From assembly GCA_947625115.1 (NCBI GenBank), contig CANQND010000014.1:1-34922 (forward strand): a stretch of 34,922 nucleotides of DNA, read 5' to 3'. The notes under the pieces are model-generated. The model was not told the origin of the DNA. It saw only the letters and a program-made list of their open reading frames with translations, and searched no databases. This stretch comes from an uncultured Clostridia bacterium. GTDB lineage: Bacteria; Bacillota; Clostridia; Christensenellales; CAG-314. The translations under genes were made by a program, and so were the position numbers. Below, piece after piece: positions 3,590 through 24,427 of this stretch. How positions within the stretch are numbered: the first letter of the stretch is position 1; each line of letters opens with the position of its first letter.

Positions 3590-5548
3590 CTACACAAGTT
3601 TGTCGAACAGGGCGTCCGTATCTTTGTTGAAATCGGCGTTTTCCGTTATGTACGCCTTGCGCGCGTCGATTTCGTCACCCATAAGAGTGGTTACCATACG
3701 TTCCGCCTCCGAAAAGTCCTCTATCGTTACGCGCATAAGGGTGCGCGTTTCGGGGTTCATTGTGGTTTCCCAAAGCTGTTCGGCGTTCATCTCGCCCAAG
3801 CCCTTGTACCGTTGCAGATCGTAACCTCTGCCGAATTCGCCCACTATTTCCTGCAATTCGTAGTCGTCGTAGGCGTAGCGAACTTTGTCCTTTTTGGAAA
3901 TTTTGTACAGCGGCGGCATACCGATATACACGTGTCCGTCGGTTATCAGTTCGCGCATATAGCGGAAAAAGAACGTAAGCAAAATGGCTCGTATGTGCGC
4001 GCCGTCCTGATCCGCGTCGGAAAGAATGATTATCTTGTCGTATTTGAGGTCCTCGATGTTGAAGTCCTCCTCGCCGATGCCCGTGTCCAACGCGTTGATA
4101 AGAGAGCGGATCTCCTCGTTGGCAAGCACCTGATCTATACGCTTGCGCTCGGCGTTGAGCGGCTTGCCGCGCAAGGGCAATATGGCTTGGAAACGCCTGT
4201 TGCGCGCTTGCTTCGCACTGCCGCCCGCGCTGTCGCCCTCAACGATGAACAACTCGTTTTTGCTGGCGTCGCGACCCGTGCAACTTGCCAATTTGCCCAC
4301 CAAAGTGCTGTTGAAAATGCTGTTTTTTTGACGGGTGACTTCCTTTGCTTTGCGCGCCGCCTCGCGTACCTTGGCGGAAGCTATCGACTTTTTGATTATC
4401 GTTTCGGCGTCGCCGCCGTTTTTTGCAAGCAGTTCGGCAAACGCTTCCGTCGCCAACGCCTCGCAGGCGATCTTTGCCTCTACGTTGCCCAACTTGGTTT
4501 TCGTTTGACCCTCGAACTGCACGTTTGCCATCTTGACGGACATAACAAGCGTTATCCCCTCGCGGAAGTCCTCGCCCAACAAGTTTTCGTCCTTGGCTTT
4601 GAGGAAACCTTTGTTGCGAGCGTAGTCGTTGAACACCTTGGTCATTGCGGTTTTCAGACCCGTTTCGTGCATTCCGCCCTCGCCCGTGGGAATGTTGTTT
4701 ACGTAACTGATGAGGTTTTCGGTGTAGTTGGTTGTGTACTGAAAGGCAAATTCCAACTGCAACGTTTCGTTTTTGCCGCTCCAATACAGCGGTTTGAGGT
4801 GCAACGGGGCTTTGTTTTCGTTGAGGTACAACACAAAGTCTTTCAGTCCGCCGTCGTAGCAGAAAGAGTCGCTCTTCACGTTGCCGTCGTCGTCATCGGC
4901 GCGTTCGTCCGTAAGCACAAACGTTATCCCCTTGTTGAGGAAAGCAAGCTCCTTGATACGCTTGTGTATCACTTCGTAGTCCATTTGAATGTTTTTGAAT
5001 ACGCGCGCGTCGGCAAGGAACGTTACCGTACTGCCGTGTTCCTTGGTTGGACCTACTTTGGTGAGGCTGTCGATAGGTACGCCGCTAAGCACTTTGCCGT
5101 TTACCTCGGGGCTGTGAAAGTGCTGGACGTATTCGTAACCGTCCTTTTTGACGGTGACGGTGAGCCACGCCGAAAGCGCGTTGGTTACGCTTGCGCCCAC
5201 GCCGTGCAATCCGCCGCTGAACGCGTAGTTCTCGTTGTTGAACTTGCCGCCCGCGTGCAACTGCGTAAACACTACCTCTACGCCCGAAATGTGCAGTTGC
5301 GGGTGTTCGTCTACGGGTATGCCTCGACCGTTGTCGCGCACCGTTACGCTGCCGTCCTTGTGCAGAGTTACCTCTACCCTGTCGGCATAGCCGTTGCTGG
5401 CTTCGTCTACGGCGTTGTCCACTATCTCCCACAACAAATGGTGAAGTCCCGTTCGCCCCGTGGTGCCGATGTACATACCCGGGCGCATACGAACCGCGTC
5501 CAAGCCCTCCAACACCTGAATGTCTTTTGCTTCGTAAGTTTTGCTCAA
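3590..5548 (-). CDS. parE: DNA topoisomerase IV subunit B (ATPase subunit)
   Basis: This is the ATP-driven subunit partnering ParC. The GHKL ATPase domain fills about residues 1-220: Glu41 and Asn45 in EIVDNAVDE, the glycine-rich RDNGRGIPVD (71-80), and GGLHGVGASV (112-121). The transducer domain follows, then the Toprim domain with Glu437 in EGDSAGGSA and metal-binding Asp511 and Asp513 in DADQDG. PLRGKPLN is closer to ParE than to the usual GyrB wording. At 652 residues the length is normal. The start codon is TTG, chosen because GGAGG stands eight bases upstream and the protein starts in the usual place. A promoter lies about 190 bases upstream, leaving a leader of roughly 180 nt in which I see no convincing regulatory fold. 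Confidence 0.92.
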   Translation of the reverse strand: MSKTYEAKDIQVLEGLDAVRMRPGMYIGTTGRTGLHHLLWEIVDNAVDEASNGYADRVEVTLHKDGSVTVRDNGRGIPVDEHPQLHISGVEVVFTQLHAGGKFNNENYAFSGGLHGVGASVTNALSAWLTVTVKKDGYEYVQHFHSPEVNGKVLSGVPIDSLTKVGPTKEHGSTVTFLADARVFKNIQMDYEVIHKRIKELAFLNKGITFVLTDERADDDDGNVKSDSFCYDGGLKDFVLYLNENKAPLHLKPLYWSGKNETLQLEFAFQYTTNYTENLISYVNNIPTGEGGMHETGLKTAMTKVFNDYARNKGFLKAKDENLLGEDFREGITLVMSVKMANVQFEGQTKTKLGNVEAKIACEALATEAFAELLAKNGGDAETIIKKSIASAKVREAARKAKEVTRQKNSIFNSTLVGKLASCTGRDASKNELFIVEGDSAGGSAKQARNRRFQAILPLRGKPLNAERKRIDQVLANEEIRSLINALDTGIGEEDFNIEDLKYDKIIILSDADQDGAHIRAILLTFFFRYMRELITDGHVYIGMPPLYKISKKDKVRYAYDDYELQEIVGEFGRGYDLQRYKGLGEMNAEQLWETTMNPETRTLMRVTIEDFSEAERMVTTLMGDEIDARKAYITENADFNKDTDALFDKLV

Positions 5549-5733
5549 TTGAGTTTCCTCCGTGGTGGTCTTTTTCCGTTGTAAATAACTTTGCCTTTTC
5601 GGCTTTTGCCCCGAACGCGCTACCGCGCAAATTTTCGGGCAAAGAACCGAATTTTGCCTGTTTGCAAAGGGCTGACCGTCCGTTGACGTCGCAGGCGCAA
5701 AGCCGCAAAAAAATGCGTTTTTTACACAAATTT

Positions 5734-13301: not shown

Positions 13302-13466
13302 AATAAACCTCCTTTGTGCAACAAAAAAAGCGTGCTCCAAATTTGGAACACGCCGCACAAGTATCCCAAATTTGTTGCCGCAAACTCAATACGATAAGAC
13401 TCCGTATGAAAGGATACTCTATGCCTGTTTGCATTGAGTCCTATCGTATAATATTGAGTTGCGGCA
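13302..13466 (-). promoter_or_regulatory. structured 5' leader with terminator-like hairpin (candidate attenuator)
   Basis: In the minus-strand transcript the first bases (13436-13464) pair with 13378-13402, giving a long imperfect stem that starts about where transcription is predicted to begin. Downstream, 13330-13353 forms an almost perfect palindrome (GCGTG, TCCAAATTTGGA, CACGC) followed by seven T (13323-13329), i.e. a terminator-like hairpin directly before AGGAGG. A second copy of CAAATTTGG near 13364-13372 could compete for the same stem. No known riboswitch class is recognised. Confidence 0.55.
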
Positions 13467-13471
13467 GATTG

Positions 13472-13500
13472 ATTTTAACATATTGTGAGGAGATTTGCAA
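13472..13500 (-). promoter_or_regulatory. putative promoter of the SPFH operon
   Basis: On the minus strand TTGCAA, 17 bases, then TAAAAT. The start point predicted from the spacing falls at the outer base of the leader's long hairpin. Between this promoter and the end of the WYL gene (13501-13609) only an A/T-rich stretch is seen, including nine T on the minus strand that may help end WYL transcription. Confidence 0.65.
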
Positions 13501-14613: not shown

Positions 14614-14642
14614 ATTATAAAACACTGACAAATAGTTGTCAA
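14614..14642 (-). promoter_or_regulatory. consensus promoter of the WYL gene
   Basis: On the minus strand a perfect TTGACA and a perfect TATAAT are 17 bases apart. The -35 hexamer lies inside the operator palindrome at 14626-14641, so binding there should shut the promoter. The leader is about 80 nt. Confidence 0.88.
14626..14641. promoter_or_regulatory. putative WYL operator 1
   Basis: TGACAAATAGTTGTCA is a perfect palindrome apart from its 4-bp centre (6-bp arms). It overlaps the -35 box of the WYL promoter and matches operator 2 at 14 of 16 positions, the two changes being compensatory. Confidence 0.75.
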
Positions 14643-20454: not shown

Positions 20455-21582
20455 TCAATTCTTTAAGTTTTTTTTCATCGAGTTCATATCTGCAACGAGT
20501 TTTTGGCTACCTGTATCGATTTTGTCGGAAAGAGCTTTTTGCAACTCTTTGTTGGAAATCACCTGCGCCGCCAAACTTGCCTCTACCGCTTCCGTGTTGG
20601 CAATAATATTTTCATTTATCGTGTTTAATGCCGACATCATTTGCGAATGCTGTACCGACAATTGCTGACTCAAAACATCAAAACAACTTGCCATTAACTT
20701 TCCCAGATTAAAAGCGGCTTCGCGAATTTGATTGCTAACCATAATCGCCGCTTGTCGAATTGCGCCTACGATTTCGTCCGTTTGACGTTGACGGTCATAT
20801 TGTATCAACGCCTCTTTGAGGTCATCGGCTCTGCCCGTAGATAGGTAGTAAATCAACAGGTCGATATTTGCCCAATCGCTTTGCGACAATATGGGCGTAT
20901 ATTGGGCGTTCAATGCGTTTCGCATTTCGTCGGCAAGCAATATCGCGGGGTGTGCATTTTCTGCATAAGACTGAATTGCTTCTACCATATTTTTTTCTTT
21001 ATACTCGCTTAGTTGTCTTTCCAAAGATTTCAACCTACTCTTTTGTTCGTTCAGGCGTTTGTTCTCGTCGGCAATGTACCTATCATATTCCCTTTCTAAA
21101 TCGCTATATTTTTGCGACAGTCGTTTGTTTAATTTATTGTTTTTTACTTTATAATTTAAGCCCACAATCAAACCTACTAACGAAACATCAATGACTAAAC
21201 CCACAACAACTCCGAGAACGGCCGTTACCGTTAAAGGTCCCAAGAGAAAAGCTGAAACGCTCATTAGCGCGGGTGCAAAAATAAAAAACAAAGCAATTGT
21301 CAAAGCAATAGTATTTTTTTTGCTAGGACGTTGTTCATCTATTTCACTTCGACACGAGGCTTTCTTATCTTTTAATTCGTCCGGCAAAACAACTGTAATA
21401 TTGTAATTTGTAGAATTGATTTGATTGTTCAATACTTTAATTTCCGATTTACATTTGTCGATTTCCGCCATTACGCCGTCGATTTGTTTTTGTTGACTGT
21501 CCACAATATCTTTCTGCTTCGATATTACGGACAACCCCGCGCGCAAAGTGTACAAATTTGCTACAAGCTCCTCTTTTCCCAT
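20455..21582 (-). CDS. coiled-coil membrane protein of unknown function
   Basis: The 375-residue protein has a coiled-coil N-terminal part (about 15-60), two membrane helices (about 91-113 and 117-143), a long second coiled coil (about 148-215) and a helical C-terminal region (about 215-375) with many Gln and Asn. No signal peptide and no catalytic motif are seen. The ATG has CAGGAGG upstream; a start 20 codons earlier lies inside a leader hairpin and is rejected. It is a single-gene unit with its own promoter, structured leader and terminator. The leader has the same plan as that of the SPFH operon, so the two may belong to one response. Confidence 0.75.
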   Translation of the reverse strand: MGKEELVANLYTLRAGLSVISKQKDIVDSQQKQIDGVMAEIDKCKSEIKVLNNQINSTNYNITVVLPDELKDKKASCRSEIDEQRPSKKNTIALTIALFFIFAPALMSVSAFLLGPLTVTAVLGVVVGLVIDVSLVGLIVGLNYKVKNNKLNKRLSQKYSDLEREYDRYIADENKRLNEQKSRLKSLERQLSEYKEKNMVEAIQSYAENAHPAILLADEMRNALNAQYTPILSQSDWANIDLLIYYLSTGRADDLKEALIQYDRQRQTDEIVGAIRQAAIMVSNQIREAAFNLGKLMASCFDVLSQQLSVQHSQMMSALNTINENIIANTEAVEASLAAQVISNKELQKALSDKIDTGSQKLVADMNSMKKNLKN

Positions 21583-21762
21583 ATTTTTTTCCTCCTGTAA
21601 TAAAAAAGTGCGGCAACCGAAGCTGTCGCACAAAAAACGCAACTCCGATTGTTACCACACAACCATACTTGTCAAAACGCATAAGCATGTGGAGCGCATT
21701 TTTTCATATAGAAAAAATCGCTTACGCGTTATGACATAAATATTAAGTTGGCTGTGTGGTAG
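21583..21762 (-). promoter_or_regulatory. structured 5' leader with terminator-like hairpin (candidate attenuator)
   Basis: In the minus-strand transcript, 21745-21762 pairs with 21651-21670 (CTACCACAC with GTGTGGTA), and inner segments pair as GTCATAACGC with GCGTTTTGAC and GCGATTTTTTC with GAAAAAATGCGC, making one long imperfect hairpin of about 110 nt that begins near the predicted start. Then 21608-21631 forms an 8-bp stem with a loop of 8 nt and a run of six T (21602-21607), directly before AGGAGG. A small inverted-repeat element inserted here is the alternative reading. Confidence 0.55.
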
Positions 21763-21766
21763 CTTT

Positions 21767-21795
21767 ATTGTAACATAACGGCGCGGCAATGTCAA
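21767..21795 (-). promoter_or_regulatory. promoter of the coiled-coil membrane gene
   Basis: On the minus strand a perfect TTGACA, 17 bases, then TACAAT. The predicted start is at the outer base of the leader hairpin. Confidence 0.8.
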
Positions 21796-22379
21796 TGACA
21801 AAATTTGACGTAAAATAAGAAAATTGAAAACGACTTGCAAAAAAGCGATGTCTTGCCGCTGTGGGTGCAAAAAATCGGTGAGAAATGTTAGGGTATGAAA
21901 AATTAGAAAGCAAAAGACGACTTCTATATCAATTGGGAATTTTTTGCAAAATATAACTTGCTTTTCAGGTCGAAACTCATTCGTCCAAACTTGTCGCCAA
22001 TATTCCTCTTCCACCGCCTAACGGCGGTCCCCCTTCCCCGTAGGTTCGCATTGCTCGCCGACGGGGACGGTCTTTGGGGAACACGCCATACGGCGGTCCC
22101 GACTGCGTTGGGGCGTTAGAAAAGCCCCAACTTGCCCGCGCAGATTGCAGGTAGGTTACAGTGTATAGAATTATTCAAACTTTTGGTAAGTTTTGCCCGT
22201 AGGTAGCAAGTCGGGAACAGTAAAAAAAGTCTTCTCTTGACGACGCAAGAGAAGGGGGACCGCCATAAGGCGGTGGTTGAGTTTCGACCTGAAAAGTAAG
22301 CTATATATTGTTAAAATTCCATCTGTGTCAACATATAGTTTTGTTATGGGTAATAGCAATATACAATTTGTTTCGGTAG

Positions 22380-22650
22380 TCGAAACTCATCAGTCACTTG
22401 CAGTGCCGACTGCGTTGGGGCGTTAGAAAAGCCCCAACTTGCCCGCGCTCACGGCAAAGTGTCCACAGGACACGTTTGCTTTGCGTGGCGCGCTCTTGCG
22501 TCGTAAAGGGAAGCCCTATACGCGGTTGCAAACTTATTTCCTACGGACAGGGGTGGGCGGTCGGGGACCTTGTGACACAGGGAGCGAGGGGTGTTCGACC
22601 AAAAATAATCTGCAACGAGGGAGGCGAGGGGATATAACTTGTTTCGGTAG
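22380..22650 (+). repeat. tandem repeat unit, copy 1 (271 bp)
   Basis: The unit runs from TCGAAACTCATCAGTCAC through the GCCCCAAC hairpin, GTGTCCACAGGACAC, and AATAATCTGCAACGAGGG to GTTTCGGTAG. Copy 2 begins at once. Confidence 0.9.
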
Positions 22651-22988
22651 TCGAAACTCATCAGTCACCTAACGGTGACGACTGCGTTGGGGCGTTAGAA
22701 AAGCCCCAACTTGCCCGCGCTCACGGCAAAGTGTCCACAGGACACATTTGCTTTGCGTGGCGCGCTCTTTTGTCGTAAAGGGAAGCCCTATACGCGGTTG
22801 CAAACCTACTCCCTGCGGACAGGGGTGGGCGGTCGGGGACCTTGTAACACAGGGAGCGAGGGTGTTCGACCAAAAATAATCTGCAACGAGGGTGGCGTGA
22901 GTTTATCTTTTTGTTGGGGCTGGTGAGCGTGTTTGCCGCAAAATAATCTGCAACGAGGGTGGCGAGGGGATATAACTTGTTTCGGTAG
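22651..22988 (+). repeat. tandem repeat unit, copy 2 (338 bp, with internal duplication)
   Basis: Nearly identical to copy 1 but about 67 bp longer, because the AATAATCTGCAACGAGGG segment is present twice with unrelated sequence between. The next copy (from 22989) keeps the first 70 bp and then switches to the module seen at 18443-18640. Confidence 0.9.
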
Positions 22989-23297
22989 TCGAAACTCATC
23001 AGTCACCTATCGGTGACGACTGCGTTGGGGCGTTAGAAAAGCCCCAACTTTCCCGCGCAGATTGCAGGTAGTCTACTTGCTTTTCAGGTCGAAACTCATC
23101 AGTCACCTATCGGTGCCAGCTTCCCTTTCGTCGTAAAGGGAAGCCATATACGCGGTTGCAAACCTACTTCCTGCGGACAGGGGCGGGCGGTCGGGGAGTG
23201 GAACGGCGGGGGCAATTGATTGCCCCGTCCTCAACTTGCGGCAACGCCGCAAACTTCACAATTGAACTTAACTTGCCGCACAGCGGCAAACTTCACT

Positions 23298-24288: not shown

Positions 24289-24413
24289 TTCATTCTTTTC
24301 TCATCCGGACTGTACCGTCGGCTCGGGAATTTCACCCGATCGGCGCGTGCGATTACGCAAGCGTTCATAGGCTGTACTATCGGTGTGGAATTGCACCACG
24401 CCCCAAAGAATTT
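24289..24413 (-). ncRNA. FMN riboswitch (RFN element)
   Basis: The minus strand shows the conserved aptamer in order: the P1 strand TTCTTTGGGGC, then GGTGCAATTCCACACC, the ACAGCC segment, GGGTGAAATTCCCGAGCC, GACGGTACAGTCCGGATGAG and the closing P1 strand AAAAGAATG. This matches the FMN aptamer closely. It controls ribU downstream, which ties the transporter to riboflavin. Confidence 0.97.
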
Positions 24414-24427
24414 GTTGTTGTAATAAA

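Follow-up and report, generated by a model that had tools for sequence, protein, structure and literature searches.

A promoter-linked leader RNA with competing terminator and antiterminator helices and its relatives in gut Clostridia

Introduction

The window, i.e. the whole 34,922-nt stretch of Clostridia DNA analysed here, contains directly upstream of a gene for a coiled-coil membrane protein a segment in which a promoter, a long hairpin, a T-run stem and a ribosome-binding site follow one another. What does this segment do, is it the only one of its kind, and is it a control element or an inserted piece of mobile DNA?

Results

Architecture of the leader

Read along the minus strand from 21795 to 21583, the leader consists of a near-consensus promoter, a hairpin, an intrinsic terminator and AGGAGG, followed by the start codon. 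Its parts and the controlled gene (all on the minus strand) are as follows.

21767–21795, minus strand: promoter, −35 box TTGACA (21795–21790), 17-bp spacer and −10 box TACAAT (21772–21767); direct sequence
21653–21761, minus strand: P1 arm with base stem arms 21761–21749 and 21665–21653; MFE fold
21691–21704, minus strand: 5′ strand of the long-range tip pairing, AAAAAATGCGCTCC, competing with the tip hairpin P3; direct sequence and covariation of the tip-pairing (PK) helix
21632–21646, minus strand: 3′ strand of the tip pairing, GGAGTTGCGTTTTTT, its 5′ part overlapping the antiterminator; direct sequence
21614–21651, minus strand: antiterminator helix, 5′ strand 21651–21640 (CAATCGGAGTTG) and 3′ strand 21625–21614, the latter within the terminator; MFE fold, compensatory changes and triple covariation
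21602–21631, minus strand: intrinsic terminator, a hairpin (21631–21608) with UUCG loop and six T (21607–21602); sequence and covariation
21591–21596, minus strand: ribosome-binding site AGGAGG, 8 nt before the ATG; direct sequence
20455–21582, minus strand: controlled gene, starting with ATG at 21582–21580 and encoding a 375-aa coiled-coil membrane protein with no Pfam family above the cut-off

The promoter matches the consensus at 11 of 12 positions and has TG directly upstream of the −10 box; the P1 base stem starts 5 nt after the −10 box, at the predicted transcription start. Inside the P1 arm a conserved unpaired AAUA lies next to the base stem, and there are an inner stem and the tip hairpin P3 around a run of six A. 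The fold energy of the leader, −68.5 kcal/mol, compares with a mean of −40.4 in 200 dinucleotide shuffles, none of which came as low (z = −6.9). A first-pass annotation of this DNA had placed a promoter at the foot of a long hairpin and, after the hairpin, a stem, six T and AGGAGG; all these parts were found, on the minus strand, with coordinates and order correct. Homologues of the coiled-coil protein with a leader of their own were observed at G012:C39, G012:C54, G014:C40 and L158. We conclude that 21795–21583 is a genuine leader composed of a promoter and an RNA switch.

Several other features of the window were recorded. Just upstream of the leader (22000–23250) there is a dispersed repeat family; its 261-bp piece 22380–22640 has 99 matches in its own genome, often in arrays. 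An FMN riboswitch is located at 24289–24414 on the minus strand (Rfam RF00050, 108.6 bits), and a perfect sigma-70 promoter (12/12) at 14642–14614, also on the minus strand, precedes the gene of a WYL-domain regulator.

Covariation and alternative folds

Covariation was assessed in 28 relatives collected by BLAST and not chosen by pattern. Four helices were supported: P1, the antiterminator, the terminator and the long-range tip pairing. For the structure designated ON (P1, P3 and antiterminator) we observed 91.5% pairing, and the double-change cells numbered 76, where shuffles gave 20 and slid controls no more than 26; for the OFF structure (P1, tip pairing and terminator) the values were 95.0% and 75, where shuffles gave 19.4 and slid controls again at most 26. 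None of the shuffles or slid controls came up to the covariation of the real alignment. Among the separate helices, the P1 base was paired in 97.9% (both sides changed in 8 of 12 pairs), the antiterminator in 94.4%, with compensatory changes, and the terminator in 94.2% (both sides changed in 6 of 10 pairs). The tip-pairing helix was paired in 93.3%, with both sides changed in 3 of 15 pairs, thinner support than that for P1.

In leaders collected with a sequence pattern (see below) the antiterminator base W pairs with a shared terminator base in 89 of 95 cases, and the terminator-stem partner of the shared base changes in step; thus, three positions covary. Since a single nucleotide has here two alternative partners, this is strong sequence evidence for alternative folds. 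It should be noted that the collecting pattern fixes parts of the antiterminator and tip strands, so that the pattern set varies there only at ambiguous positions.

Rough energies computed for 105 leaders were −16.2 for the antiterminator, −14.0 for the terminator and −16.4 for the tip pairing. In the absence of the tip pairing the antiterminator is ahead of the terminator by 2.1 kcal/mol; with the tip pairing the OFF state is lower by 6.9 kcal/mol, before any pseudoknot penalty.

Distribution of the family

A DNA search found the window leader in a single copy in its own genome, and related leaders in 23 of 101 relatives, mostly immediately before a gene, the genes differing from case to case. 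The covariance model R1, built from 28 leaders (its E-values are rough), detected leaders in 34 of the 101 relatives and, in the class search, in 49 of 196 genomes representing 34 of 132 genera, with as many as 12 matches in one genome, 12 being the most candidates that were scored. With a 23-base pattern we collected at least 120 stretches in species genomes, plus four viral contigs; the matches came mostly from metagenome-assembled genomes (MAGs) of Clostridia, many from herbivore gut, and the cultured Pumilibacter intestinalis, whose strain CLA-AA-M10 has a type A leader at locus L135, was among them. The phage or viral contigs with a leader are five in all. A phylum-wide search, which held few genomes of the same class and used strict filters, gave one genome out of 398, the window's own; it is superseded by the class search. 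The plan of promoter, hairpin, terminator and ribosome-binding site thus recurs in many relatives; a scan for divergent types found no further leader among 400 kb sampled from the own genome.

Additional sequence types were seen across the class, all keeping the same pairing plan, and the distribution within one genus is patchy. The genomes involved are mostly metagenome-assembled, and all the evidence is derived from sequence. The family to which the window leader belongs is large, is without a counterpart in Rfam and is present in gut Clostridia and some of their phages.

Anatomy across relatives

Among 114 pattern-collected leaders the P1 stem has at least 11 bp in 109, and a −10-like box (at least 4 of 6 positions) is present in 112, in 99 of which it lies 5–7 nt before P1. 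Conservation is about zero upstream of the −35 box and fades soon past the T run and ribosome-binding site; the distance from the T run to the start codon has a median of 30 nt. The tip pairing, of ∼15 bp, joins the hairpin tip (AAAAATGCAAATTCC) with the segment after P1 (GGAGTTTGCGTTTTT).

The unpaired AAUA occurs at +13/+14 of P1, often as TTAATATT, which resembles a −10 box; its frequency is 76% in type A and 59% in diverse leaders, compared with 13% in shuffles. We infer, with no ligand-binding data, that AAUA could be the site where a ligand or protein makes contact, or else could make the polymerase pause close to the promoter.

Leaders were also observed in tandem, three in L136 and two each in L143, G052:C37, L300 and L301. 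Each tandem leader has its own promoter and terminator, and the sequence types sometimes differ.

A second leader in the window

Another leader precedes an SPFH/zinc-ribbon gene of the window.

13323–13500, minus strand: second leader, before the SPFH/zinc-ribbon gene; descriptor score 89.8, homologue L203

Its promoter (13500–13472) reads TTGCAA, 17 bp, TAAAAT; then come P1 (13466–13376), the antiterminator (13374–13363 with 13349–13338), the tip pairing (13419–13411 with 13367–13359) and the terminator (13354–13329) with its T run, followed by AAAGGAGG. The two leaders had been described in the first-pass annotation as unlike in sequence and alike in the order of parts, and comparison of their structures bears this out: the order is the same and the sequences look unrelated. 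The two were also compared by a sequence-blind descriptor, which scores only the pairing of the four helices and their joint geometry. When the whole window (34.9 kb) was scanned on both strands, just two places reached a score of 74 or higher: the window leader, with 95.6, and the SPFH leader, with 89.8. In first-order Markov control sequence (919 kb) no score exceeded 78.0. As genuine coding DNA without a promoter scores up to 93, the promoter is needed as a part of the identification.

The family model R1 misses the SPFH leader by sequence, and only the structural descriptor and intermediates connect the two. In L199 and L200 an antiterminator of the window type occurs together with a tip pairing of the SPFH type (GTATCTC/GGAGATAC). 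The leader at G007:C28 was reached by BLAST from the SPFH leader (E-value 9.8e-6) and, independently, by the covariance model of the window-leader family (E-value 1.4e-5). In L203 a leader of the SPFH type stands in front of an unrelated lipoprotein gene, and its antiterminator carries a compensatory change (CAAATTCGG/CCGAATTTG versus CAAATTTGG/CCAAATTTG). A homologue of the SPFH gene in G016 has its own leader (L225); two closer SPFH homologues have none. These observations support placing the window and SPFH leaders in one superfamily, defined by common predicted geometry and promoter. The earlier suggestion of one control principle behind both leaders holds, because intermediates in relatives (L199, L200 and G007:C28) join the two types.

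A second SPFH/zinc-ribbon paralogue, with 58% identity and an internal TAA stop, was seen elsewhere in the same genome (G000:C1:24922-25932, minus strand).

Downstream genes and genomic context

The 111 proteins encoded downstream of leaders fell into 78 clusters. A predicted signal, membrane segment or lipobox was present in 67 of the 111, and the Pfam families among them include BspA-type repeats, zinc ribbons, WG repeats, trypsin, DUF4236 and an EcoRI-type methylase. The claim that such leaders serve membrane-linked proteins is thus only partly general: it stands for the majority of the proteins, and beyond this the genes show no relationship to one another. The module accompanies a wide range of accessory genes, most of them envelope-linked and some carried by phages. 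In L167 the leader (5373–5575, minus strand) and its gene are situated between terminase genes and a primase gene, and in the phage record MT835503.1 a leader at 336–527 precedes an EcoRI-methylase-like gene; both look like real phage context, as expected of phage cargo genes.

A tRNA gene on the same strand was present within 1.2 kb upstream in 21 of 106 loci, compared with two tRNAs within 2.5 kb downstream. Judged from this arrangement, leader and gene would fit a small cargo unit inserted at a tRNA gene. A survey of defence islands gave only scattered single PADLOC matches, and the plasmid comparison gave no match.

Leader-plus-gene units, among them those of L090, L112 and 19 other loci, often lie 120–700 nt past a same-strand tRNA gene. 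In the first two of these loci the gene is followed by 40 nt copied from the 3′-end of the tRNA, which gives leader and gene the look of a small unit inserted there.

Discussion

Proposed mechanism

The leader meets what is expected of an attenuator: an intrinsic terminator lies between the promoter and the start codon, and an alternative helix, backed by covariation, excludes this terminator. We propose that it acts in cis as an RNA switch with its own promoter, a transcription attenuator, and give this reading, inferred from sequence comparison, a probability of roughly 0.78. RNA polymerase would start at the foot of the P1 hairpin. In the ON state the segment after P1 would engage the 3′ half of the terminator in the antiterminator helix, and transcription would continue into the gene. 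In the OFF state the same segment would instead be base-paired with the tip of the P1 arm, the terminator would be freed, and transcription would stop at the T run before the ribosome-binding site. Which state is adopted would depend on a signal; the likeliest is a molecule or protein that reads the P1 arm and the AAUA loop. The tip pairing is the presumed lever, because the rough energies favour the antiterminator without it and the OFF state with it.

What is shown at the level of sequence are the parts, their covariation, the nucleotide shared by two helices and the linkage to promoter and ribosome-binding site. Actual termination, the default state and the existence of an effector are inferred, there being no data on expression, termination or ligands. 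Which state is the default is uncertain, since the energies are near balance after a pseudoknot penalty. In those leaders whose P1 arm is long, the tip may come into contact with the antiterminator only if the arm bends or partly opens. The nature of the signal cannot be guessed from the cargo, as the downstream genes have no common pathway.

Alternative explanations

The terminated RNA of ∼160–270 nt could instead be a trans-acting small RNA, with read-through into the gene incidental. In favour of this, promoter and terminator are present in every unit, units occur in tandem (see above), and in a few cases no clear gene is found close downstream of the leader; stacking is unneeded for a plain cis-switch, and the tandems count against such a switch. 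Still, the start codon follows the T run so closely (at the median distance given above) and with such a good ribosome-binding site, and the coiled-coil, SPFH, DUF4236 and collagen-like families retain a leader despite differing sequence type. Moreover, the antiterminator covaries, yet a plain small RNA has no use for an antiterminator; we therefore regard a small RNA as unlikely. A further possibility is antisense attenuation of the plasmid pT181 type, in which termination is governed by a countertranscript made from the other strand. The long imperfect hairpin followed by competing terminator folds resembles such systems; however, opposite-strand promoters were no commoner than in shuffles while sense promoters were enriched, which leaves this option hardly tenable. 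Even less credence can be given to leader-peptide attenuation, in which a ribosome on a short frame from the tip AUG selects the fold: the AUG is present in many members, but the tip triplet is AUG in just 50 of 106 (elsewhere ACG, GCG or CUG), frame lengths vary widely and there is no conserved short reading frame. The tip AUG is explained by the pairing AUGC/GCGU.

The remaining explanations invoke mobile DNA. The first-pass annotation had allowed for insertion of the hairpin as a miniature mobile element (MITE), and the patchy distribution within one genus and the unrelated neighbours are in line with it. A search for the hairpin as a mobile repeat elsewhere found, however, the single copy in the own genome instead of multiple near-identical ones; homology is confined to the stretch from promoter to ribosome-binding site and is always oriented toward the gene; and the diverged arms keep their pairing by compensatory changes, unlike recent transposed copies. 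Though no systematic search for target duplications was made, we consider a MITE very improbable. Attenuators derived from the ends of insertion sequences and conserved before unrelated genes have been described by Naville and Gautheret (PMC2965389). This precedent raises the possibility that the leaders are 3′ terminators of insertion sequences left behind as ‘mobile attenuators’. The leaders include, though, a promoter of their own at fixed spacing to P1 and competing antiterminator and tip helices, and the sequence upstream of the −35 box is not common to them; such an origin can be nearly dismissed.

Relation to known systems

The proposed attenuator resembles the mobile attenuators (PMC2965389) in being conserved before unrelated genes with patchy spread, and differs from them by its own promoter, the covarying switch helices and the absence of attached insertion-sequence DNA.

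In terminator/antiterminator riboswitches and leader RNAs, too, an antiterminator and an intrinsic terminator that exclude each other lie in the 5′ leader, ahead of the start codon. Unlike the known attenuating riboswitches, the window family has its terminator switch tied to the tip of a promoter-proximal arm, has no Rfam match and has no common downstream pathway. T-box riboswitches make a choice between antiterminator and terminator and are found class-wide in Firmicutes. The window family shares this choice; its genes, in contrast, are not aminoacylation or amino-acid genes.

Rfam at the gathering threshold gave no match at the leaders, nor did Rfam 15 under relaxed thresholds, down to E-values of 1 and 0.5, at any tested leader. 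A riboswitch of a known aptamer family was rejected with no Rfam 15 match, and a T-box with no match to a T-box model in the Rfam scans.

A large list of structured-RNA candidates from the human microbiome (PMC8040213), as far as the passages found allow one to say, includes some from Clostridiales and some with terminators. Those passages of the main text contain nothing with the architecture of the window leader, and the candidate list could hold pieces of the family. In the open-access literature, supplements excluded, we found no published description of this architecture.

Implications

It is conceivable, though we would put it at slightly less than an even chance, that the family is a major undescribed Clostridia class of signal-sensing switches: a single module of promoter, switch and ribosome-binding site whose many sequence types preserve one logic of pairing, which goes with envelope genes that move horizontally and with phage cargo, is at times stacked in tandem, and answers to a ligand or factor yet to be discovered. 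Provided that the switch does work in the inferred way, one in four of the class genomes sampled has a regulatory RNA that has escaped recognition, in some genomes in a dozen copies, and it would gate little-known surface and accessory genes of gut bacteria and their phages. There would then be a new ligand or factor to be found, co-regulated genes could be predicted among proteins of unknown function, and a self-contained expression module would become available for these bacteria, which are hard to engineer.
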